Shown in pieces: positions 17,801-62,820 of a stretch of DNA of 64,000 nucleotides (its first letter is position 1; every line of letters starts with the position of its first letter). The notes under the pieces were generated by a model. The model did no database searches, was not told where the DNA came from, and saw nothing but the letters and a program-made list of their open reading frames with translations. Origin of the DNA: Sipunculus nudus (lineage: Eukaryota > Annelida > Sipuncula > Golfingiida > Sipunculidae); contig CM049308.1 of assembly GCA_026874595.1 (NCBI GenBank), forward strand, positions 75,749,124-75,813,123, given 5' to 3'. The translations under genes and the position numbers were made by a program.

Positions 17801-20800
17801 ATTTCCTGTGATAAACAGAACAAGTTTGAGCATTTTTCTCAAGATAAAGAAATGTTTTTTTTCTTTTGCTGTGATTCTAATCTGTTTGGAAAATGTATAT
17901 AAATTCTTTATGTTCAGGAAGAAGATGCAGAAGAAGCACAGCCAAGCAGCCCTCTGGCAAAGCTGCAGCACCTGGCAAGCCAGCTCAGAGACCTGGTGGG
18001 ACTGCACACCAAGTATAACTGTAAGCTGTCCCTGGCTCAGTACTGTCAGGTAAGTCAGACCCACAGGTTACATGTTCTTAACAACTGTCAATCATTTCTG
18101 ATCCTTTTTGTTGCAGGCCTGAAAAGTCTTTATAATTAATTCATATTTGTTAATTGGTGTCTCAGTAACCTTTATTATTATCAAGTTGGCACTGTCATAA
18201 AACTATAGTTTGTTTGCCAGAAAATGTTTACATCATGACATAGCAGTTAATGGTTAGAAAGCCAAAAAATAAATACATCTGGTTGTCTGAAAGTTCAGAA
18301 ATGTTTCATTTCACTCATCATATCAGCATAAACTTTTATCATCAAGTAAAATAACCATAGTATTAATCATCATAATGGAATGAATTTTAGTCAGTAGATT
18401 TCTTTATGATATTACAGAAGACCAAGTGTTGCTGATGAACCATATGCAGGACTTACATAGTTGGACTTTTTGAATTTTTGCAGGAGACCATGCAGTCCCT
18501 GATATACCATATGCTGGACCTTGTAGTATATATTCCATTGTTTGATACATTTTGGTAATTTTCAAGGAGACAGCAGAGTAACTGATATACTGTATATTTG
18601 ACCATGTAGTAATTATTCCATTGTTTGTACATTTGGTTACTTTTCTAGGAGACGACAGTCACTGATATACTGTATGTTGGACCATGTAGTATTTATTCCC
18701 ATTGTTTGTACATTTGGTTACTTTTCTAGGAGACGACAGAGTCGCTGATATACTGTATGTTGGACCATGTAGTATTTCTTCCATTGTTTGATACATTTGG
18801 TTACTTTTATAGGAGACGACAGAGTCACTGATATACTGTATGTTGGACCATGGAGTACTTATTCCATTGTTTGTACATTTGGTTACTTTCCTAGGAGACA
18901 ACAGAGTCACTGATGTACCGTATGCTGGACCGTGTGGTGGCTAACGAGTTGATCCCCAGTACGTTACAAAACCTCATCAAACCATACATGAAGGAACATC
19001 TCATGGATGAAGACCGCATGCTGTGGCAGTACATCTGTGTATGTATATTTTAAAAGCATGTTAAGGTGGATTGGTCATTAAAATTTCTAACACAACTTCT
19101 CTTTCCTCAAAATTTGATTTTGAAAGGTATCTCTTGAGTTTTAATCAAAGATTTGTCTTAAGGCCTTATTTAAAGGTTAAAGGAACACATTGAATATAAA
19201 ATTCATCCAAAAGGAAATGTATTTGCCAATTTTGTTTCAGTGATATTTGTACAATTTATCCAGCATATCTTTTCAGTTTGTGTTTCGATGACTCTAAGAA
19301 TCCTAGGAAAATGATGGATTCTTTGCTAAAATCTGCTATAATAAAGTACATTACCAGCTGAGTGATACAAGGAAAGGCTAACTGTGCATCAATACCATCC
19401 AGAATATCTGTAGTTAAGCTTGAAGATACCACATTTATGTTGTTAACCAATGTTTTAGGTATAATACCATACAGCAGTTTTGCTGTAATGTAGATGGTAT
19501 ACATAAAATAATTGATTAATAATTGATCATCAGTCATTTTTCATCTTTCAATCATCAAAGTGATTTTTCAACTAATTCCTACCATTTTATATCATTACAT
19601 ATATGTGTATATAACATGTGCGTTCTTGAACTGTGCCACACCTAGACCTGTGAACATACCTGGCTTGTGGACCTTGTACTTTGTAGGACTTGGTAAATAG
19701 AGAAGGAAGGGTGAGATCATACCTGGGAGAGGCTCCGTGGGAGGTCAAGTCTATAGCAGTCATCCACTGTATCAAAGACCCAGAGGTGTGATGTCATATT
19801 CTGATGAAATGTCATGTTTTTTATTATCTTTGCTAAAATATCATATTGTGATAATTAGTGTTTATGCAGAATCATATGATAAGAACTGCTGAAATTTATA
19901 CTTGAATGGTTACAAAGTAGATAAATTTAGTCAAAATGACAGAGTGAACAATTTCGCATTTTTTCAAAATGAGACTTTTAAACAGTTCAGTTCATACCTA
20001 GCATCATCTCAATCATTACAAATTAGTTAAGTATTTTTTATTCAAGTGCCCACTTGTTTTGAATTATTTACTGATAAGTTAAAATCCTTAAATAATAATG
20101 ATAATTTACTGATAATCTGTCAAGCATCTGTCACTGAGATAACAGTTCTCTGTGTTTCTGAGTCATTAATGTTACACTTTATACATGTCTTAATCCTCTT
20201 CTTTATTTATTAACATTTATAATAAGTTCATTGTAATGTTCCTTACTCTGATTCTTGCAGTATCAGTGTAAGAGTATACTGGAGGTGACGAAGAAAGCGC
20301 ACGTCCCCTGGAGCCAGGGAGTACAGGAACTGGTAGACTACGGGCTCACACTGCCCAGTAACAGGTCAGTGCAGATACAATAAAACCTAACCTAATGACC
20401 ACCTTGGTTTAGGGACTACCTAAAAATAACAACCACTTGTTTATGGTCCTGATTCTTCTTGGTTCTTTTTATCAGACCTTGCATAGAGGACCATCTCCTC
20501 ATACTGTAAATATCATGTTTTATTACGTAAACATAATTGTGAGCTGTTTCAGTATTAATGAGAATTTTCTCTGTTAAAGTTTATACGCCAGAGTAAGCCA
20601 ACTGAAAATTTTCCCTTATTGGGCCTATAATTGCCCATCCCGCCTTGTTCCCGTGTATGTAGGTCACACTTCCATTTCCTGTAATCACATTTTCTTCTGG
20701 CGTCAGCCATGATGGATGTGTGATCACGCTCTGCACGATTCGTCTACTGTTTTGGTTTGTACAGTCGGGTTTGCCAACTGAACTGTAAGTTGTGTTTCTT

Positions 20801-23800
20801 TTTCCCTTCCCGCCATGGAGAACCCCACTTATTGTGTTTCTTGTGGTTCCTTAATCCCTGCTTGGGATTCTCACCCCACTTGTTTCACCTGCCGTTCGAA
20901 CAATGACTCCTGCCGGGGCCCGGCGGATCCATGTTTCTACTGTCAGACATGGTCTTCCGACAAGTGGGTATTGTTTCACGATTGGTCTCATTCCCCAGTA
21001 GTTGGGGGTTCTCCTTCCACGCCTCCTTTATCTGGTCCTGTGGTTGCCTCCCGGGGGGGGGGGGGGGGGGGGTGAACACGGCCGTGTTACGTTCACCATC
21101 AGTTACCACCGGTACCATTACCTCCCCGGTAGTTTCGACGGCCAAGTCCTTACTTTCCCATTCCCGTAAGCGGAGGTCTTCCCCGGTTCCCGCAGCTCCC
21201 CGTGCCGAAGGACCGTCCGCTTATTCCATCTTGCATAAATTATCTAGATTTTGCTCGTCCCTGATGTCGGATCTAGACGATTCGTCTAGACCCCAGTCCG
21301 TTCATCCGGCGGCCTAACTCTGTTCCCCCGGTGCTTTCCCCCAGATCGTTATCTTCACCCCCGGCCCCTGGCCGGCTTCCTTCCTTATCCCCTTGGCCGT
21401 CTGGGGCGGTCCCTGCTGACTGCGGCTCCAGTTCCTGTGTCTTCCTGGGTGGTTCCTGCTGCTGACCGGCCCTCGGCTTCTTTTTTTCAGCCTCTGGTCG
21501 TTCAGGCTCCACGGGTTTCCCTGGATCCCCCTCCTGGGGTTCTCCAGCGTCCCTGTCCTCTCACACTGCTGATCCCACCCTGGCACAAGATCAGTGGTCG
21601 GAGATTGCGTTGCAACACCAGGCTTGGCGTACGCGCAAATCTGAGCTACTGGACCTTGTTGCTACCTCCACTCAGGATCACCGGTTCTTATTTATTTATC
21701 CATTCCGCCCTTCAATCGCCTTCCTCCACACCCGCCGTGTGTATGAAGTTTACTTGTTGAAAATTGTATTTTGTTGCGCCGCTCGGCTTGCCTTCAATCT
21801 TTAAAACACTTGAAACCGGAACTTACACAAGCAGAGTTGACGGAGCTTTACTCTCAACCTTTCACTGGCTCCCTTCTGTTTGGCGGCCATCTGCGACCTC
21901 TTTTTGACAGCAGGCAGATTCGTTCCTTTCTCACGTTGCGCCCTGTCAACTCTCGGACAGTGGCTTCTCTGCACAGCACTCTCAACCGGGCCGCCACTTT
22001 TATCCCGTTCGGTCGGCTATACCTCCGTCCGGTGCAGTCTCTCCTGCGCCGTCACAGCCTTATACGTTTAACCTCGCTTCGTCCTACGGTCCTCCCGTTT
22101 CAGCTCACGTGGAGGTCCCTTCATCCCTGGCTGGACCTTCCCTTTATCCTGCAGGGAGTTCCTTTTTCTCAGGAAATCGATTGCACAGTGTATACCGACG
22201 CGTCTCTCCTTGGTTGGGATGCCAATATGGCCGATCTTCGCGCCACGGGGGTCTGGTCCCCGTCGGAACGTCTCCTGCATATCAATGTCCTGGAACTTCG
22301 AGCAGTCCGTCGCGCGATCTCCCGCTGGTCCCCCCGCTTGCTCGGCCGTCACATTCTCGTCCGGACCGACAACACCACGGTCGTGGCATATATCAACAGG
22401 CAGTGCGGTACTCGGTCTCCCTCACTGATGCAGGAGACCTACCTCTTGTTCGATCTGTGCATCTCTCTCCGGGCCTCGATTCATGCGTCTCATCTTCTAG
22501 GCGTGTCGAACATTCTTGCCGACGCCCTTTCCTGTTGCCCTGCGTCTCTTCCTCCGCCGGCGATCCTTCCGCTTCCGGTCGTTCGGAGTCTTTTCACTCG
22601 TCTGGGGAGTCCAGAATTCGATCTGTTCGATTTTCCATCCCCCCCCCCCCCCCATTCTCGAGCCTACCACGACGCGTCTACGTCACCCTAGCGACAGTCT
22701 CCCCAACACCCTGCCGTCCCTGTGGTCTCACCTGTTTCTCTTCGCATTTCCGGTTCCTCATCTCATCCGCCGTATCCTTCTCCGCTTGTCCCGTCGGAAC
22801 AGACAGCTCTCCTCCTCATCCTCCCGTTTCATCCTGCGGCCCCCTGGTTTCCTCTGTGCGATCACTTCTCTCCCGACCACGGCTTCTTCTACCGCTCAGG
22901 ATCGATCTCCCATAGTTCCTGCGAGCGCATCACCCATTTCGATCGTGCCCTCTGTGTGCATGCGTACTCTCATCGGACGCCTCAAGGATCGGGAATTTCA
23001 AGTCCGGCTGCTCTCCTTGCCTCGGCTCCCCGTCGCCTTCTACGGACCGCATCTATGACTCCCGGTGGCGTCTCTTCACCGGTTGGGCGTCTACCCGCGG
23101 AACCTCTCCTTTAGCTCCGTCCCTTGCGGCGGTTTTGGATTTTTTCGTGTTTTTACTGCAGGATAAACATTTATCCTATCAGTCTCTGCTTGGCTATCGT
23201 GCCACCCTGCTGTCTGTGCTCCGTCCGCTAGGTCACGATCGTGTCCTTCATCATCCGTTAGTGACGGATTTAACAAGGGGGTTCTCGCGTCTCGTCCTCG
23301 CTATGTTGCGCCTTCCTGGCGCCTGGACGTTGTCTTACGTCACCTCTGAGAACCCCCTTATGAGCCCCTGCGTTCGACCCATCTTCTACATTTGTCTTGG
23401 AAAACGGTTTTCCTCCTAGCTCTTGCGTCTGCCAGTCGCCGCTCTGAGCTTCATGCCCTAGTGGCTGATTCGAAATTCACACAAATTGCGGCCGACAGTT
23501 CGTCGGCCACCCTACATTTTCCTCCGGATTTTTATAGAAAGAACCAAAATTTTGATGATCCTCTGTCAGCTTGGCATGTTCCGGCCCTCCCTAACGGTCA
23601 GTACCGTTACGGGGCTACAAATTGCCCGGTTCATGCCTTACGTTACTATCTTAAAGCTACTCATTCTTTACCGGGGGGGGGGGGGGGGGGGTGCAAGAAG
23701 TTGTTTATTTCAACGAAAGTCACCACTTCAAACAAAGAAATTAGCCCTGTCACCATTAGTGCATGGCTAAAAGCTACTATTGTCGCCGCCTATGAGTCGG

Positions 23801-26800
23801 CTTCTCCATCAACTTTAGAGCAGCTTCACATCAAGGCTCATGACATTCAAGCTCTTTCTACATGGTTGGGCCATTTCTCGGGGATTTCCCCAAATCAACT
23901 GGTCAAGAAAGGCTATTAGAAGTCACCTTCTACCTTCACCCACTTTTATCTCAAGGCTGTAGGGTTACAAGCTTTGGTCCTTTATTCCTTGGGCCCTGTG
24001 ATTGCGGCGGGTGAGGTCCTCCAGTTTTCCAGGCCATCATCGCCTTCTACGTCTGTTCCGACAGCGACGTCTTCTTCTGCTCCATCCCAGCACTGATGTT
24101 CTCATCATTCTGTCGTTCCAGGTAGGTGTCCCCTCCCCAAGGTTTATCTCTTTTATTCTCATTAATACAGAAACAGCTCACAATTATGTTTACGTAATAA
24201 AACCCTCCATTCCCTCCCTGTGAATGGTGGTTTTGTTAGTAAACTGTTGTGAGCTTTTCTGTATTACAAACAACGCTCCCTCCCAGTCCACTTCCTTCCG
24301 CCTTCGAAAAATGTGATTACAGGAAACGGAAGTGTGACCTAGATACACGGGAACGAGGCGGGATGGGCGATAATAGGCCCAATAAGGGAAAATTTTCGGT
24401 TGGCTTACTCTGGCGTTTAAACTTTAACAGAGAAAATTCTCATTCATACAGAAAAGCTCACAACAGTTTACTAACAAAACCACCATTCACAGGGAGTGAA
24501 TGGGGCAGTTTCGTAAAAATCAACAAATATGAAAGAAAAGAGCATGATTGATAGATAGATTAACACAATTGTATGTTTTTTCATACTTCATATTTAGAAG
24601 TTGATTTTCATGTATAAATAAAAGGTATAATATCCTATTTATAAATTTAGCATTGACTTGATCCGTCTGATTTTGATTGACAGGACATCAGAGATCAAAC
24701 ATCATGTACAGCTAATGGAGCTGAAGAAAGTACTGCTGGAGTACAACTTACCAGACTACAATGTGGCCATGCAGCAAAACGCTGAGGTTGGGAACAAACA
24801 GTCATTTCAAGAATTACTGTAAACATCTCATGGATTAAAAGTTTTAATTAAAACACCCTCAAGTTAAATCTTGGTTTTTGTACTAAAGGAGAAGGAATAA
24901 AAGAAAAAGGGACAGGATAAATTTATATTTTTCATAAATCTCATCTCATTTTAAATAATGTCTGACCTACACTAATCTGAGAATATAAGAGAAAATGCAT
25001 GATTATTATTGTCAGGTGTGCCACCAAAGGCTATGGCCTTCTGGTAACCAAAGCAAGTCAAACTCACTCCACAGACAACAGTCACAGCTAGGACTGCATG
25101 ATCTTAATGTTATTAAGATAGTTATAGATCTTGTTCTTATTTAACCTGTATGTAACTGATTCTGACTTCAGACACTGATGCGGTACATCTTAAAGGCTGA
25201 CAGAGAGACGGCACTACAGGATGCCCTGGAGGTGGTCAAGGCCTACAGTCATCTTGATGACATCATGGCTTACATGTTCAGAATCAGGCTCCTCATAGCT
25301 GGAAACAGGGTAGGATGCACCAAAGGTCTTCTTAAAATGGGTCCCCATATTTTCTCATCAATTATTTTTTTTTCACCAAGGAGGACTTGGCTTTGAATTC
25401 TTTTACATGAAGCAGATGAACTTTCATATAAAGTAAAACCTCATAGTCTCAAGCTCAACCAAATAGAAAAACCTACTTGATTGGAAGTTTCATGCTCAAA
25501 GTTCAAAGTTAAATTATTACTATATAAACCCATTTGTGTCAAACCTTGGATTAGTCCCTTCATCATCTACACAACAAGGTTGTACTGTAATATGTTTTGA
25601 TTTTTTTTATAAATATTGTCAGCTTGATATAATGCTCATGCCACTGAAATTATACAAATGTTATCACTTAGTTTTGGTATCACTTCTCTGTCATTATGTG
25701 CAGATGTGTACAACAAGTGCCCCAACCCTCCACCCCTCATGGAAGCAGTTAATTTATCAGAAGAATACATTAACTGACTTATTGATTTCAGCTTAGGGAG
25801 TGCATGGACCCGATCAGAAGTTTACCTAGTGACAATTATAAAAAAACAGACTGTTGTTGTTTGTTGATTTCAGCTTGGAGAGTGCATGGACTTGATCAGA
25901 AGTTTATCCAATGACAATTATAAATCAAACTGGTGTTGTTTGTTGATTTCAGCTTGGAGAGTGCATGGACTTGATCAGAAGTTTATCCAATGACAATTAT
26001 AAATCAACTTGTTGTTGTTTGTTGATTTCAGCTTGGAGGATTCGTGGACCTGATCAGAAGTTTACCTAATGACAATTATAAATCAGACTTTTTGTTTGTT
26101 GATTTCAACTTCGAGAGTGCATGGACCTGATCAAAATTTTACCTAATGACAGTAATAAATCAGACTTGTTGTTGTTTGTCGATTTCAGCTTGGAGAGAGC
26201 ATGGACTTGATCAGAAGTTTACCTGAAGACAAGGCTTATGCTTGTATAACCAGAGTGGTCACCATGGCCTTGGTGCTGCTTAATGACCCTGTGTGTATAA
26301 AAGAAAAGGTAGGTGGACTATCCTGTGTGATCCTTTAAATAAAAGCTGATTTGATTAACAATATTTTACAGATACATAATACTAGTTTCATGAGATATAA
26401 GTAAGTTTTTTTTTTCAGTTCCGCATTCTCTTTTTTTTTTTTTTTGCCTCAAGAGGAAACTCTTGTCAGATAATATCAGATAGCTGATATTAAATTTCAT
26501 ACACTTATTTAGGCCATGCAAAACAAACAAACCTTGACTGTCTCTGTAATTCTGATCCTTTTTCACACTGCAAATTTAATTCTTGTATCAGAGAAGACTT
26601 TTTTTTTATTTTATAACAGGAGAATAAAGTGATGAAGATCCTGACCACCAGGGCAGCAGTTGAGGCACTGAGATATTTACTGACTACAGACATAGGTAAA
26701 ATATAATGTCTTAATGCCAGCTATAGACTCTCTTACTTACTAACCTACCCTTTGTGTGCATTCTCTTGGTTGGCAACGTAAATGTAGTTAACTGTTCATA

Positions 26801-35800: not shown

Positions 35801-38800
35801 ATTTTTTTTTTTTATTGATAACAGTAGTTATACTAATACTGCGTATAAACGTTTATTTTGTTGAACGTGAAAAAGATTTGAACTTGGTTTCGTGTTACAT
35901 TTTAACCCCCCTATCCTGGTCAAGTCCTGTATAACAGCCACTCCTGTATTAAGGCCACTTTCTTCCAGTCCCGATGGTGACCGTAATACAGGAGTTCTAC
36001 TGTATTTTCAGGCTTTCAGACCATAATCTCCTTTATTTTCCTTTTTTATTTCAACGCACAATCATGTTTACTTTATATTTGTTTTTACTGAATAATTACT
36101 GTTATGTAAACTTATTATTATTTAAGACATGCACTTCTGTCCATGTAAGGGATGCAGGCATACAAGAACAGCCATCTAAACCAATTAAACAGACTTTACA
36201 TATTTGGTATTGCTTTAAGTTTATTGCAATGTATATTGTATCTCAATAGGCTCACTTATACCTATCCCTATTATTTAAAATATATTTGTATATTGCGCCA
36301 CATTTAAAAGGCTGAAAGCTTCATTTTTGTATGGTTTGCAAAAGTAGGCGCGTTAGTTAATGTATACAGTATAGAATCACTTTCATTTATATTTGGTATA
36401 ATTGAAAGATGTACATGTCTTCTTCATATTTCAGGAAACATCTGAGCAGAAATTTGTTGAATCACTTTCTCCAATGTTAAAGAAAGTGACCATCCAGGAC
36501 CAGATATTTGATTTACTAGTTAAGGTAGGTCTCACTCTGGACATTTACACTGTTACACCAACTAAAACAGTTAATGTAACATTGTGTTATGGATATTTCT
36601 ATTTTGTACTAGATATCAAAAGGCCTGCTGTCTAGTGTGATGATTTACAACTCTGTTATACTTATAATGTACAAGTCTAAAAAAAAATACCCAAAGAATG
36701 TGTGTAAAAATGTTTATTTTTTCCTCATATACAGTCGGACCCCGTTAATCCGGCACCATCGGGGATTAGGAATTATGCCGGATTACGCAGTTTGCCGGAT
36801 TATGTATCAGGGACACCCACAGCTAAAAACACAAACCCAGGGAAGAGCAATATTTGCCGTATCTTGGATTATAATTAAAAATGAATTATATTATGCATAA
36901 AGTAAAAATTGAGTGATAATAAAAGTCAATAAAACACTTCAAACAATGTGCAAAGAAACTTTACTCAAAAGTTCCAGCAGAATGTATCGATACAAAAAAT
37001 AATGCAGGAAGGAATTACAGAATCATCACCTATATAAATTGTCCATATACATTTTTACACAGTGTGACTAGTTTTCACCAGGGTTAATGACTGAGTTACT
37101 TTGTACTGAAGTATCTGTCCAATGTGCACTGCTTGTTGTCACAGAGAGCGGCTGAATTGAGTCTAGACAGCATGTCTCGCAGTAGCAGCAAATCCCTCTC
37201 GCCGAAATCCTGGGGCTTCGTCTCCGCGTATCTGACCATATCCCGCAGTCCCTGTCTGGCGATCTTAGCAGTTGGCGGCTGCTGTTCGTCCGGACTCGCG
37301 TCACACTCGTCCTCGCTATCATCATCGTCTTTCCTCCCGACCAACACAATATCCAAAATGTCCACGTCACTAAGCATATCTCCTGTAGGAACACCGGAAT
37401 CAACCACGAGATATTCATCCGCAGTCAGCGTGTTTTCGATTGGTAGCTGAGCGACAAATCGGGCAAGCTCGGCAGTATCCGGCAGTGACGCAGAAGGGGG
37501 CGGGGCTGTCTCATCGCTGTTTGGGAGAATGCCTGTATGCTTGAAACAGTTGGCGATAGTCTGCTCGCTGACCTCGTTCCAAGCCTGTCTTATGAAGTAG
37601 ATTGCATCTTTCACAGACGTTTTCTCTATTGCCCCATGGTCCTCAACTTGTGCAATCCAGTCCTTTGCCTGTATCTTTCTGTAGTGACATATGAAGGCTT
37701 GAATAACCCCCACGTCCAGTGGCTGTATCTTTGACGTGGTATTAGGCGGCAGATAAACCAGTCGAACATATTCCCAGTGCTGGTCTTTGTGAGAAGTGTG
37801 GTTGTTGACCAACAGCACGATTTTTCTTCCTTGAAGCTTCATCTTCCTGTTTATCTGGCTGACGTATTCTTCAAACATAGTGCTGACCATCCACGCTTTC
37901 TTGTTATTCTTGTACGTAACGATGGGCGCGGGGTCGAATCCTTTAAAGCAGCGAGGTTTAGCGGATTTTCCGATCACGATTGGTTTTAGTTTCTCAGATC
38001 CGTCCGCATTTGCAGCAAGACCAACTGTCAGCTGATCCTTGCACTTCTTAGTTCCCTTGACTGGTGCTGTAGCAAGTGTTCTGTCAGGGCCTAGGCGGAA
38101 GAATAATCCAGTTTCGTCAAAATTGAAAATGTTGCAAAGACTGTATCCCACAAGTGCTGCTTGAACGTCACTTCGACCCTTTGATTCGACTTGTTGGTCT
38201 ACGCTCCCTGATTCACCATGCATGACGTGCTGTTTGATGCCACCTCGTGCTTCATCCTATCTATCCATCCATTCGAGTATTGGAAGTCAGTGATCCCCAG
38301 TTGCTGTCCTAGCTCTTTTGCTTTTTCACGGAGAATGTCAGTGGAAACGATCGCTCTGTGGGCCACAATGTCTTTCAACCATAGTGTCAATGCCTCTTCC
38401 AGCTGTGGATGCTTGCCCATTTTCATCCTTTTCACTGTGTCTGTGCTTTCATCCATTTTCAGCCACTTGTCTTTGTTTGACAGTATGTCTGACACAGTCT
38501 GTAACCAATGTCAATCTTGTGTTCAGTAGCAACCCATCCCACGATGTCTCTCTGTGTCGCCTTTGGGTGTTTTTCTTTGTAGAGGCAGATGTCTCTCTTC
38601 AGAGAAACATTGATTTCACAGCACTTTCATTTCGGCATAGCTAGCGTATGTCAATGACGATAATAAATACTCTTTAATCACTGCAGTATTTATAGGCAAA
38701 AAAATCTTTAATTATTCACTCTTTTTAGTTTGTTTGTTCTGTGAAGTCACTTTAAACATAACCGCGGGTCTGTTTGCTCTGCACGCATGACCGCCAGTGA

Positions 38801-53800: not shown

Positions 53801-56800
53801 TGAAATATTGTTAATCAAAAATTTAAAATTAATAAACAAAATTTTGACCATTCATCTAAAATCCGATCAGCAAAAAAACCCTTTAAAAAAATTAGTATAT
53901 ATGTGCAGAGATTATTTAACAGCTACACATTATGTCAATTAATTAGTGCACCTGACGACAGGTGCGTGCGAAACAATGCCCGGCTGGTCTGATTTGTCCT
54001 CAGTTTTCTTTAATGAAGCAGTTGTGGGCTGAATGATCAACAAAAAAGAAACAGAATATTCCTAACTGTTGAATAACAGAAATAATAATATTTTTAATAA
54101 AAAGAAATAAAATATTTTTTTTTTAGTTTTTTTTTATTGCATTCTTTTGTAATTGTATTGCCAGACATAGTCTGGAGATACTATGGTTTAGGCACGGTTG
54201 AGCCGCCGCCGCAGAGATTTCTTTTGGACACAATAACTCAAAAAATATTTCAAGGATCTTTTTCAAACTTGACACATTTATAGATATAGGTGAGAGGACG
54301 AATGCTATTTAAAATGGGGTCATGACCTCAACTAGGAGAGTGACCTTGACCTTGAATAGATCCATTTTTGGGGAAAATCACACAAATTCTTAAATATCTC
54401 AAGAAATCTTTCATGGATTTATCCAAAAATCAAGTTGGACAAAGATCTTGGATAGTGATGTCATGTACCGGAAACTGGTGGTGCCACCTAGTATCCTTTT
54501 CTTGTTTTTGTGCCGTATAATACCCCCATCATTGCCACTTGACAGTACTTTAAGCATCACAAGTCAAAAACTGATTGACAGATTTCTTTAATATTATGCA
54601 TGTACATAGGTATGGGTTATGGGATGATGTATATTAAAATTGGGGTCAGGACCTTTCCTTTGAGAGTGGCTTTGACCTTGAATATTACCATATATGGTGA
54701 AAATCACATAAAATCATGAATATCTTAAAAAGGGATGCATGGATTGGTCCAAAAATCAAGTTGACGGAAGATCTTGGATAGTTTTGTCTTTTGCAGAAGA
54801 TAGGTGGTGCCACCTGTTGTCCTTTTCTTGTTTTTTGCGCCTTTGAATACCCCATCATTGCCACTTGACAGTATATACTGTGAGCATTATAAGTCAAACA
54901 GTAATGGACAGATTTCTTTCATGTTATGCATGTATATAGATATGGTTTATGGAATGAGGTATATTTAATTTTAAATTTAATTTTAAAATTTAATTTAATT
55001 TAAATCATTTTTTTTTTTAATTTAATTTTTTTTTCAAATGTTGGATATTTTGGAATGCAGTTTATTGATTTGGGGTCATGACCGTGACTATGAGAGTGAC
55101 CTTGACCTTGAATATTCCCATATTTGGTGAAAAACATAAAATCATGAATATCTTAAAAAGGGCCACTTGACAGCACTGTGAGCATTATAAGTCAAAAACA
55201 AATGGACAGATTTCTTTTATATTATGCATATACATAGATTTGGATTATGGGATGAGATATATTTAAATTTGGGTCCTGACCTTGCATATGAGAGTGGACT
55301 TGACTTAAAATATCGCCATATATGGTAAAAATCACCAACAATCATGAAAATCTCCAGTGAACCTGGGGGATTGCTTCAGCTAGTGGTCTGCACATGGTGT
55401 TGCATCATGTTTTGCCCAAACATCAGCAGTTCTGGGCCATTTTTAGATTCTATAAATAGATATGATGGTCAGTGATAAATGAATTAGTGCACTGGGTGTA
55501 CCACAGAGTCACAACTGGATCATTTTCCTTTGAGAGTGGTCTTGACCTTTGGACGAAGACTATTTAAAATGGCTCATGAATGTTGCCTATATGGGACTTG
55601 ACAGTATTGTCAGCATTATAAAATAAAAATTAAAAAGTTGTTGGATAGTGTTGTCATGTGCTGGAAACTAATTGGCAGATATCTTTCATATTATGCATAT
55701 AGATAGATATGGGTAATGTGATGAGTCATTTGCTGGGAACTGCATGGTGGCACCCCCTACTCTATTTTCTTGTTTTTCCACAATTTATGCTATTGATAAG
55801 GAACAAATGACAATTTTTATGACAATATAACAATTTATTACAAAGAACAAAATATGATGTGAAACAAAATATAACAGATATTATTATTTCATTCTCATTA
55901 TCTTATCTCTCCATCTCTCTGAAATCCTGTCTATCCATCTCTTTCTCTTTCTTTCTGCTTTACTCTATATTATTCTCAAACAAGTTACTCCAAACATACA
56001 TATACAGCTCAATACATCATTAAATATATACTTCTATTTATACATAACCTTTTACATAACAATTGCCTTCACTTTAAATATTCCTATATTTTGTACAAAT
56101 GTTTCTCACATTCATTGCTAAAATAAAAATACATCACATTATATCAACAAAATACCACAAAACCTCATTTGTCTGGCGATACTATGGCACCAGTGGTGCC
56201 AAGAAATGTCTAGTTACATTTTCTATATTTAAAACTGTTTACTAAACTATTTGCATACTTTTGAGTTCTCCCACACCATCTAGGTTACTGTGTAATTTAT
56301 GTTATTATGACAGCTATGAATCTGGTATGCTACCCACTAATTCTGATTTGTCCAGGGTCATTCAGCAATAAATGTAATGTAATTTACATATTTTAATGTA
56401 ATTATCATAAATATTGATTAAATTGGTACGCAAAAGTAACATAAAAATAATTGTCAACAGCATGTCAGTATCTGATAATATCTTGGACTCTGTTGCAGAT
56501 TGACATTCATGATGAATCACAGTGCAATCTTATGCAAAATCATTTATCCAAAGATTGTTTTTCTGAGAGGCTGGTCCATCAGGCTGTTCAGATAAATGAC
56601 TTTCTACTGTTATATCCTCAAGAAAGGTATCATTTTCTGTCATATTCTAATTTTCAAGAAGTTATATTACTTCTGATACTGTATAGCTATATTGTGTATA
56701 GTGCCAATTCGGCCCTCTGACAGACCAGCATGTAAGGGTCAGAGTGCCTTAACACCTTGCAACAAGGGTCATGTTTTAAGGCTCTGTATGAGGATGCAAA

Positions 56801-60842: not shown

Positions 60843-62820
60843 ATAAAGGTATGGTTCTCAGGCACTTTTTTTTTCAGAAATCAATGCGGGCAGGCGTTTT
60901 TTTTTTTATTTTTATTTTTTTGGTATGTTTCGATAAAAATGTCAAATGAATAGGGAAAAGCATTAAAATAATAGATTTATTTTGCTAAACAAGTAACAAC
61001 AAAACAAAGGAAATTGTGTGATGTGATTTTTCCTTCTTGAAAGAAATGTCTGAGCGGCTGCAGCTTGAAATCGGTGAGTGTCTATTGAAAATCAAAACTA
61101 GACGACCAGAGGTCAAGCGCTTGCCGGAAGTTGAAATGACAGACAGATGGACAGACAGAACATATTGTGGGTTTTCTATTATTTGAATGACCCTCAGCGT
61201 TTGCTGAGAAGTTGTGGCCTGTAAAATGACATATCAGATAAAACAATGAGGAAGCAGACAAAGCTGACCACAAAAGACTAACAGACAGACATACTGACAC
61301 ATCTGTGATAACAGATTACCAGACAAAAGTGCCAAAGGTTAAGAAGAGCAAAATTAGCCAGAGTTTATGTAGATAAGGTTTATAATTTTGGAGATATGGC
61401 CAAACATGATATGTTGGGGGAGGTGAAGGTGCAGCGCCCCCTAGTGGCTATATCCGGAAAATGAAAAATCTGTTTTGAGATTTTAGTGTAACACATAAGA
61501 TGTATCAGTTTTAAAAGGATTCCTGAAAAAACTGTGGCCTGTAGAATGCTACATATGAGACGCAAGAACCAGCAAGTAGGCGGATTTGAGGACAACTGAC
61601 AAACAGACAGACACACTGACAAAGTGACACAAGATTGAGACCAGATGACATTACTAGGTCATGGAGAAGACTCAGGGAAAGAAAATAAACCATAGTTTCT
61701 GTAATTGAGGCTTTGGGTTTTAGAGATATGGTCAATATAATGATATGTGTGTGAGGGTCATGTGCAGCGCCACCTAGCGGCCCTATCCGGAAAATGAAAA
61801 AAAAAATTTGAGATATTTCTGTAAAATATAATATGCAACAGTTTTCAAATTCTTCTTTAAAAACTGTGGCCTGTAGAATGCTATATGCCAGATGCAAGAA
61901 TCAGCAAGCAGCCAAATTTGAGGACAACTGACAAACAGACGGACACACTGACAAAGTGACACAAGATTGAGACCAGATGACATTATCAGTTTATGGCGAA
62001 GACTCAGAGGGAAAAATAAGCTATAGTTTATGTAATTGAGGCTTTGGGTTTTAGAGATATGGCCAATGTAATGATATATGTGTGAGGGTCGTATGCAGCG
62101 CCCCCTAGCAGCCATATTCAAAAAATAAAAAAAAAATTTCGAGATACTAATGTAGGACTTATGTCAGTTTCAAAATGATTCCTGCAATAATGTGGCCTTT
62201 GGCGCAAGATGAATGAAATCTCGAAATATCTCTATTCACGAGATATTTTACGAGATACTGCAAGACTTGTAATAAAATCTTGTAGTACTAGTTGAATGCT
62301 ACCTGATGCAAAAAACTAGATCACTCTAGCTTTAAAACTGACAAAGTTAGAAAAATAAGACCCCTTATTTTCGAATATCATGACCTTTCCCCCAAAATCT
62401 GTAACCATGGTTACGGCAAATTTAAGTCAGCTACACACCAGATGACAGGCCTTGGAATGACGATTAAAATGAGCTATTGTTGAAGTAGATACGACTAATA
62501 GTCACAAAGATATGAAGAAAAAACCGTTTTGAGAAGTTTTGATGACCTAGACCTTGACCTTTGACCTATTTTGACCAAAAACAATAGGGCACCTAGAAAT
62601 TTAATTCTCCATCATCTCTGAAAGTTTCAAGGTGATTGTGGCAAAATTGTGGCCAGGAGAGTGCAGACAAACAAACAGACAGACAAACAGACATACGCAA
62701 CTGACCAATATGCATGCCAAAATCTTTGATTCCGGCAAGCAATAAAAATTTTGATGCAGGGGTTTAAAATTGATGTGGGCGGTGCCTGAGAACCATACCT
62801 TTATTTTTTTTTTGGCCTTA
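60843..62820. mobile_element. TIR element (GGTTCTCAGGCAC ends) carrying a nested insert
   Basis: Outer halves (60843-61100 and 62743-62820) together match the full element at 53044-53403 in reverse orientation, ending GTGCCTGAGAACCATACC. They are split by a 1,642-base insert at a TA. Confidence 0.85.
61101..62742. mobile_element. Nested transposon inserted at TA, with 330-bp tandem units
   Basis: Flanked by TA on both sides (61099-61100, 62743-62744); the paralogous element at 53044-53403 shows the unoccupied TA. Near the ends CGCTTGCCGGAA faces TTCCGGCAAGC, and both sides carry ACAGACAGAC tracts. The interior holds about three tandem units of about 320-332 bases starting at 61208, 61527 and 61859, each opening GTGGCCTGTA. 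The minus-strand open frames here (SVCLSVC motif) are translations of the repeat and show no known domain. Confidence 0.82.

Follow-up and report, generated by a model that had tools for sequence, protein, structure and literature searches.

A row of decoy splice acceptors in the KNTC1 orthologue of Sipunculus nudus: probably an exon-edge minisatellite, and one of many such arrays in the genome

The choice among near-identical splice sites that compete with each other has so far been studied mainly with built constructs; duplicated splice sites were also used in earlier cis-competition assays. Among the closest described systems, a new intron in the potato RdRp gene is reported to have arisen from one duplication that spanned an intron-exon boundary (PMC4974935). 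For recent human paralogues in segmental duplications, minisatellite expansion at exon-intron boundaries has been described together with 27 intron modifications, the variable repeats having units of 30 bp on average that are repeated 4 times (PMC2812944). In designed libraries of human tandem splice sites the first of equal donors wins, while equal acceptors are reported to show no order preference (PMC6783452). In the short introns of Drosophila, spurious 3' splice signals are reported to be removed by purifying selection (PMC10946897).

Here we analysed a window of 64,000 nucleotides from Sipunculus nudus (assembly GCA_026874595.1, contig CM049308.1, positions 75,749,124 to 75,813,123 of the forward strand), in which a tandem array at positions 18418-18940 consists of units of about 82 bp, each made of an intron end and an exon start (Table 1). 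A preliminary description had recognized seven boundary-spanning units in a row, and this is borne out both by TRF (18494-18935, period 83, 5.4 copies, score 647; with looser settings 18453-18938) and by seven acceptors in register, spaced 66, 83, 82, 81, 83 and 82 nt along the row. The unit takes in ~36 nt from the end of intron 15 and ~45 nt from the start of exon 16, numbered as in that description, whose list of junctions did not contain the leftmost acceptor at 18418. The copy at this acceptor is the most diverged one (its exon part is 68% identical to the real exon); its alignment score of 27 nevertheless compares with a maximum of 21 in 2000 shuffles, and in sequence resampled from a first-order Markov model none of 234 points was spanned by a local duplication with a score of at least 14.

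The last copy had been taken to be the working exon, and matches to human KNTC1 (PDB 7qpg chain R) on both sides of the junction agree with this: in phmmer searches exon 17918-18049 matches residues 932-966 (E 0.0011) and exon 18895-19038 matches residues 969-1015 (E 4e-7). Because these stretches of the human protein nearly adjoin, the join of 18049 to 18895 is nearly seamless and hence represents the productive junction. Judged by these matches, we are dealing with an orthologue of KNTC1 (Rod, kinetochore-associated protein 1), in which all six copies that precede 18895 are decoys. A 15-kb read-through compared with PDB for all KNTC1 exons gave only four weak stretches. Within the KNTC1 span, the window also contains on the minus strand (37099-38256) an open frame of 386 amino acids with a DDE_1 transposase domain (Pfam E 9.7e-40). 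A GC-rich region with long open frames on the plus strand (about 20400-24300) looks like a retroelement and includes a weak RNase H-like match of reverse transcriptases at 21747-22688 (plus strand; E 8.9e-5, below the curated cut-off). Tandem repeats of about two copies were found by TRF at 54309-54965 and 61386-62154, with units of 326 and 332 bp.

Table 1. Positions of the two KNTC1 arrays in the window and edge-crossing arrays at other loci (unit length x copy number)
Feature	Position or locus	Strand	Details
Upstream exon (exon 15) of KNTC1	17918..18049	+	donor CAG|GTAAGT after 18049, 13.3 bits, 98th percentile
Decoy 1, probably the oldest copy	18418..18462	+	acceptor ATTACAG before 18418, 8.3 bits
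Decoy 2, strongest acceptor in row	18484..18528	+	TTTTTGCAG, 12.5 bits, 83rd percentile; exon part 78% identical to real exon
Decoy 3, weakest acceptor	18567..18611	+	TTTTCAAG, 5.0 bits; repeat family
Decoy 4	18649..18693	+	TTTTCTAG, 7.9 bits; exon part 98% identical to decoys 5 and 6
Decoy 5	18730..18774	+	TTTTCTAG, 7.9 bits
Decoy 6	18813..18857	+	TTTTATAG, 8.1 bits
Working exon (exon 16)	18895..19038	+	144 nt, phase 0; first ~45 nt are repeat; acceptor 5.7 bits, 6th percentile
Second edge-crossing array	25782..26232	+	79 bp x 5.7 (TRF)
Second-array acceptors	before 25792, 25874, 25953, 26032, 26109 (AG lost), 26189 (real)	+	
Working exon behind second array	26189..26308	+	
Kinesin acceptor-edge arrays	L037, L041, L044, L056		61 bp x 8.6; 60 x 5.1; 72 x 9; 31 x 23; by reading
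CCT acceptor-edge array	L083		31 x 5.8; by reading
USP acceptor-edge arrays	L212, L221		41 x 2; 107 x 4.3 (half-units of ~53 bp); by reading
Kinesin donor-edge arrays	L064, L009, L029, L046		52 x 14.7; 38 x 2.7; 30 x 6.6; 86 x 6; by reading
USP donor-edge array	L217		47 x 11.9; by reading
Donor rows	L064:813-1560, L217:229-793, L029:3194-3401, L046:122-634		exon-end copies after real donor

The array has head-to-tail units in the range of roughly 10-100 bp and in several copies, as is typical of minisatellites (83 bp x 5.4, and 79 bp x 5.7 for a second array in the gene, see below), and with a unit made of intron end and exon start it is at the same time a duplication across an intron-exon boundary. 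A search of the genome (1.43 Gb in 153 contigs, of which C1 to C17 each exceed 60 Mb) gave a single match at E up to 0.001, the array itself, in a search that skips very common words. The array is thus no dispersed element, and in the absence of further copies at this threshold a transposable element was rejected. Duplication of a tandem, mutually exclusive exon was likewise rejected, since only ~45 of 144 nt are copied and the donor of the exon has no copy. Tandem repeats are a classic cause of assembly error, and an artefact was considered for this reason; however, the copies differ from each other at many sites, the contig is a 97.9-Mb piece in an assembly of 153 contigs, and similar arrays exist on several other contigs, so that an assembly artefact is extremely improbable.

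Acceptor scores come from a weight matrix for which 112 kinesin-exon acceptors of this genome were used. Five of the six decoys outscore the working acceptor at 18895, and strength alone can thus not account for its use. Most copies had been claimed to keep a usable acceptor, and AG is indeed kept in all six decoys; use of any of them was rightly predicted to be unproductive, for reading on toward the end of exon 16 leads from each of the six to a premature stop. In a scan for branch-point patterns the real site has CTTAT at -34 and decoy 18484 has CTTAC at -29; the other copies have weaker patterns or none. A strong acceptor-like site (13.5 bits, 89th percentile) is located outside the array at 18117, 67 nt past the donor of exon 15.

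The decoys could be thought to be cassette microexons or introns in the making, in which a decoy acceptor would pair with a donor within the copied exon part. They do duplicate an intron-exon boundary, like the described potato case (PMC4974935), and the exon part of the decoys up to CAT|GTAGTA is an open frame of 39 nt. Yet donors inside the row are weak, the best being TTG|GTAATT at 18554 with 5.0 bits (8th percentile), followed by ACT|GTATGT with 3.8 bits (2nd percentile), and lacking a strong donor the decoys do not resemble small exons. In addition, introns between decoys would be only ~40 nt long, and two arginine codons, of which one is conserved with human, are no longer present in the young decoys. 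We consider this explanation very unlikely.

Sequence comparison among the copies provides indications of how the array grew. The exon parts of decoys 4 to 6 are 96-98% identical among themselves and, by this measure, these decoys are the youngest copies, while the first two, which are more diverged, are probably older. The real exon part is only 82-84% identical to decoys 4 to 6, compared with 91-97% for the 36 nt of intron that precede it. Over 45 nt, the changes that separate decoy 18730 from the real exon are five silent ones, two at CpG (CGT to TGT and CGT to CAT) and one of ATG to ATA, in agreement with the view of the preliminary description that differences are mainly silent or at CpG. 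It is presumably purifying selection that kept the real exon edge apart. The two CpG arginine codons were lost in common by the young decoys, which indicates that the amplified unit had already decayed. Amplification of a decayed unit, together with the occurrence of the same layout at unrelated genes (see below), favours a neutral over a regulatory origin of the array; the preliminary description had considered both neutrality and a slowing or regulation of exon 16 splicing.

The only other array in the window with at least five copies and a unit above 35 bp is located at 25782-26232. Its unit likewise joins an intron end to ~38 nt from the start of an exon, and the last unit is the real one. 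AG is kept in four of five decoys, three decoys outscore the real site, and each of the four decoys with AG would, if used, give a stop in all three frames. The exon behind this array (26189-26308) had no match in a PDB search when used alone; joined with the neighbouring exon it matches residues 1118-1194 of 7qpg_R (E 5.6e-5). Four designed pentatricopeptide repeat proteins reached a higher total score in the search with the joined exons, with no single stretch passing. There is thus good but not strong reason to assign this exon to KNTC1.

To extend the analysis to other genes, we used a sample of 196 exons picked regardless of repeats, which together with their flanks amount to 273 kb and derive from matches to the kinesin motor (117 of 126), chaperonin CCT (49 of 63) and USP (30 of 30). 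Nine kinesin matches were not fetched, and 14 chaperonin matches were dropped as bacterial-looking or intronless. Nine full-length intronless GroEL matches of equal score are located on contigs C61, C62, C66, C72, C73, C75, C89 (two places) and C99; the GroEL of C61 is at most 70% identical to the best 80 GTDB loci, which come from mixed phyla, and the small contigs that bear GroEL are probably bacterial contigs in the assembly. Reading of the sampled sequences revealed the same architecture, as far as sequence can tell, at acceptor as well as donor sides of other exons (Table 1). The presumed edges of the arrays that were read were placed by the kinesin, CCT and USP consensus and not by transcripts. 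Arrays at L017 and L050, which end at or before the probable acceptor, were rejected as edge-crossing, as was L204 after reading.

From each locus to the next, the arrays that were read vary in unit length and sequence. The most extended row of acceptors (L056:875-1583; 31-bp unit, 23 copies) has a higher-order period of 369 bp with 95% matches; 22 decoy acceptors keep AG, and 19 of them are within 3 bits of the real site and none above it. Among seven acceptor arrays, 20 of 56 decoys with AG outscore their own real site (decoy 18418 not included, one doubtful site of L044 included). Donor decoys are less intact than acceptor decoys: GT is kept in 16 of 25 decoys of four arrays (in neither of the two at L009), and at L217 GC is found at the donor position of 6 of 11 decoys. 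These observations suggest that exon edges have been copied into introns at many exons, and that the KNTC1 array is, by its layout, one of many such arrays in the genome, those on the donor side included.

Are exon edges preferred sites of such arrays? Of 39 non-redundant arrays with scores of 120 or more and units of 25 bp or more, 10 cross an edge among the 360 annotated, a count for which six edges were set, and L017 left out, by eye. The number expected was 2.47 if a unit-sized seed is placed at random in its stretch (P 9e-5) and 3.18 if whole arrays are placed at random and may extend up to 60 nt into an exon (P 8.5e-4). With automatic edges throughout, 7 of 39 arrays cross compared with 2.43 expected (P 0.0086), this count including L017 and L204, both of which were read as non-crossing; with arrays allowed 120 nt into the exon it is 9 of 39 (P 0.0004). 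By family, the counts were 6 of 26 for kinesin (P 0.004), 1 of 5 for CCT (P 0.30) and 3 of 8 for USP (P 0.010), and with automatic edges 5 of 26, 1 of 5 and 1 of 8 (P 0.39 for USP); the CCT sample alone is thus not significant, and USP is so only with edges set by eye. The edges of L029 and L046, which belong to exons or exon parts outside the profile matches, were left out of these statistics. All ten crossing arrays end 12 to 49 nt inside the exon, and with 10 of 360 sampled edges in arrays the 95% interval is 1.3-5.0%. The enrichment rests on few arrays and in part on edges set by eye.

An ordinary minisatellite-rich genome, in which arrays arise anywhere and some cross edges by chance, would share the neutral origin with the explanation we prefer and would deny both the edge preference and any special splice choice. 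Minisatellites are indeed dense across the genome in general, 29 of the 39 sampled arrays cross no annotated edge, and the fully automatic count deviates from expectation only at the P value given above. Moreover, there was no point-wise excess: 7 of 223 kinesin edges are located in a spanning local repeat compared with 61 of 891 intron control points, so that part of the pattern reflects the high general density; a point-wise enrichment of edges in repeats was rejected on these numbers and the array-based test was kept. Against chance crossing stand the 10 of 39 arrays at an edge, where 2.5 to 3.2 would be expected, and the narrow range within the exon in which they end. If arrays seeded at an edge grow into the intron only, the edge would be covered by one unit per array and an intron point by many, and the point-wise null result and the array-based excess would agree. 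Chance crossing in a repeat-rich genome is rather unlikely in our view, though to be taken seriously. We would also put forward only tentatively, and regard as doubtful in its full form, the broader proposal that exon edges are preferred birthplaces of minisatellites, that some percent of them carry decoy rows, and that the real site prevails by position through exon definition against equal or stronger decoys.

Might the rows be regulators? Acceptors of the KNTC1 row could have been selected to bind U2AF or other factors, to slow splicing of exon 16 and to divert transcripts to decay, and the complete retention of AG and the stops behind all six decoys would agree with this. Across seven acceptor arrays, the decoy AG is the best kept of 35 dinucleotide columns (53 of 55; P 0.006), in a test that is biased by windows centred on AG; recentred at every offset, the excess has a P of 0.019 (8 acceptor arrays). 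For the donor GT there was no excess (P 0.65) in four arrays, L217 not being scored. A slight over-retention of the decoy AG is not predicted for a purely neutral row, and selection on it is suggestive only. However, the excess is weak and AG contains no CpG, the same layout is found in functionally unrelated genes, and there is no unit length or sequence common to the loci. A regulatory row is thus improbable.

The KNTC1 array is a real feature and in itself most likely neutral. We think it likely that a tandem duplication across a splice site seeded it and that it represents an exon-edge minisatellite, not an evolved regulator; no regulatory role would be needed to explain it. Slippage or unequal exchange would have led to a first tandem duplication across the exon edge, after which selection would retain only the copy joined to the exon and the remaining copies would decay; later amplification of a decayed unit would then have generated the array within the intron. 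The working copy might be picked mainly by its position, being joined to the full exon and nearest to its own donor, and not by acceptor strength, and occasional use of a decoy would give rise to a stop-bearing transcript; such transcripts would probably be degraded, and the cost would be low enough to be tolerated. Choice by position is an assumption, given that equal human acceptors show no positional preference. Rows on the donor side, in which the first copy is the real one, would fit the rule that the first donor wins. Rows on the acceptor side, in which the last copy is real, do not follow from this rule, which gives no order for acceptors; they would call for exon definition, for a better branch point or for tolerated waste.

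If the frequency of such arrays in the sample is representative, a single genome would offer many natural experiments in which a real site known from the protein is accompanied by 1 to 22 decoys, and the use of decoys could be measured as a function of their number, strength and distance. The arrays would also show how introns grow at exon ends. Should the positional reading be true, the acceptor side would display a rule by which the copy nearest the donor is used, unlike the prediction from human data. Annotators should be warned that the protein-family match extended into the decoys at L217 and L221.

Single related cases are already in print, and recurrence across one genome is the new aspect and the main interest of the arrays described here; by title and abstract, we found no literature account of a genome with recurring arrays of this type, in a search whose scope excluded bioRxiv and most subscription papers. 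As described for the potato RdRp gene, the duplication gave rise to a new intron that is spliced and takes its donor from the exon copy, whereas the KNTC1 row has six extra copies and no good internal donor (PMC4974935). Minisatellites at exon-intron boundaries are common to the human paralogues and to KNTC1; the human account compares paralogues and discusses the formation of novel introns, whereas here a conserved gene is affected, an intact edge ends the row of decoys, and several unrelated genes are involved (PMC2812944). NAGNAG and other tandem acceptors likewise have several AGs competing at one intron end, although NAGNAG sites are described as spaced by 3 nt and giving in-frame isoforms, while the units described here are at least 31 bp long and in KNTC1 all decoys are unproductive (PMC3250501). 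With respect to splice choice, the designed human libraries are comparable in that, as in these arrays, similar splice sites compete in one transcript; there, two designed sites are reported, whereas here the arrays are natural and comprise up to 22 similar acceptors, and it is the last acceptor or the first donor that the encoded protein calls for (PMC6783452).
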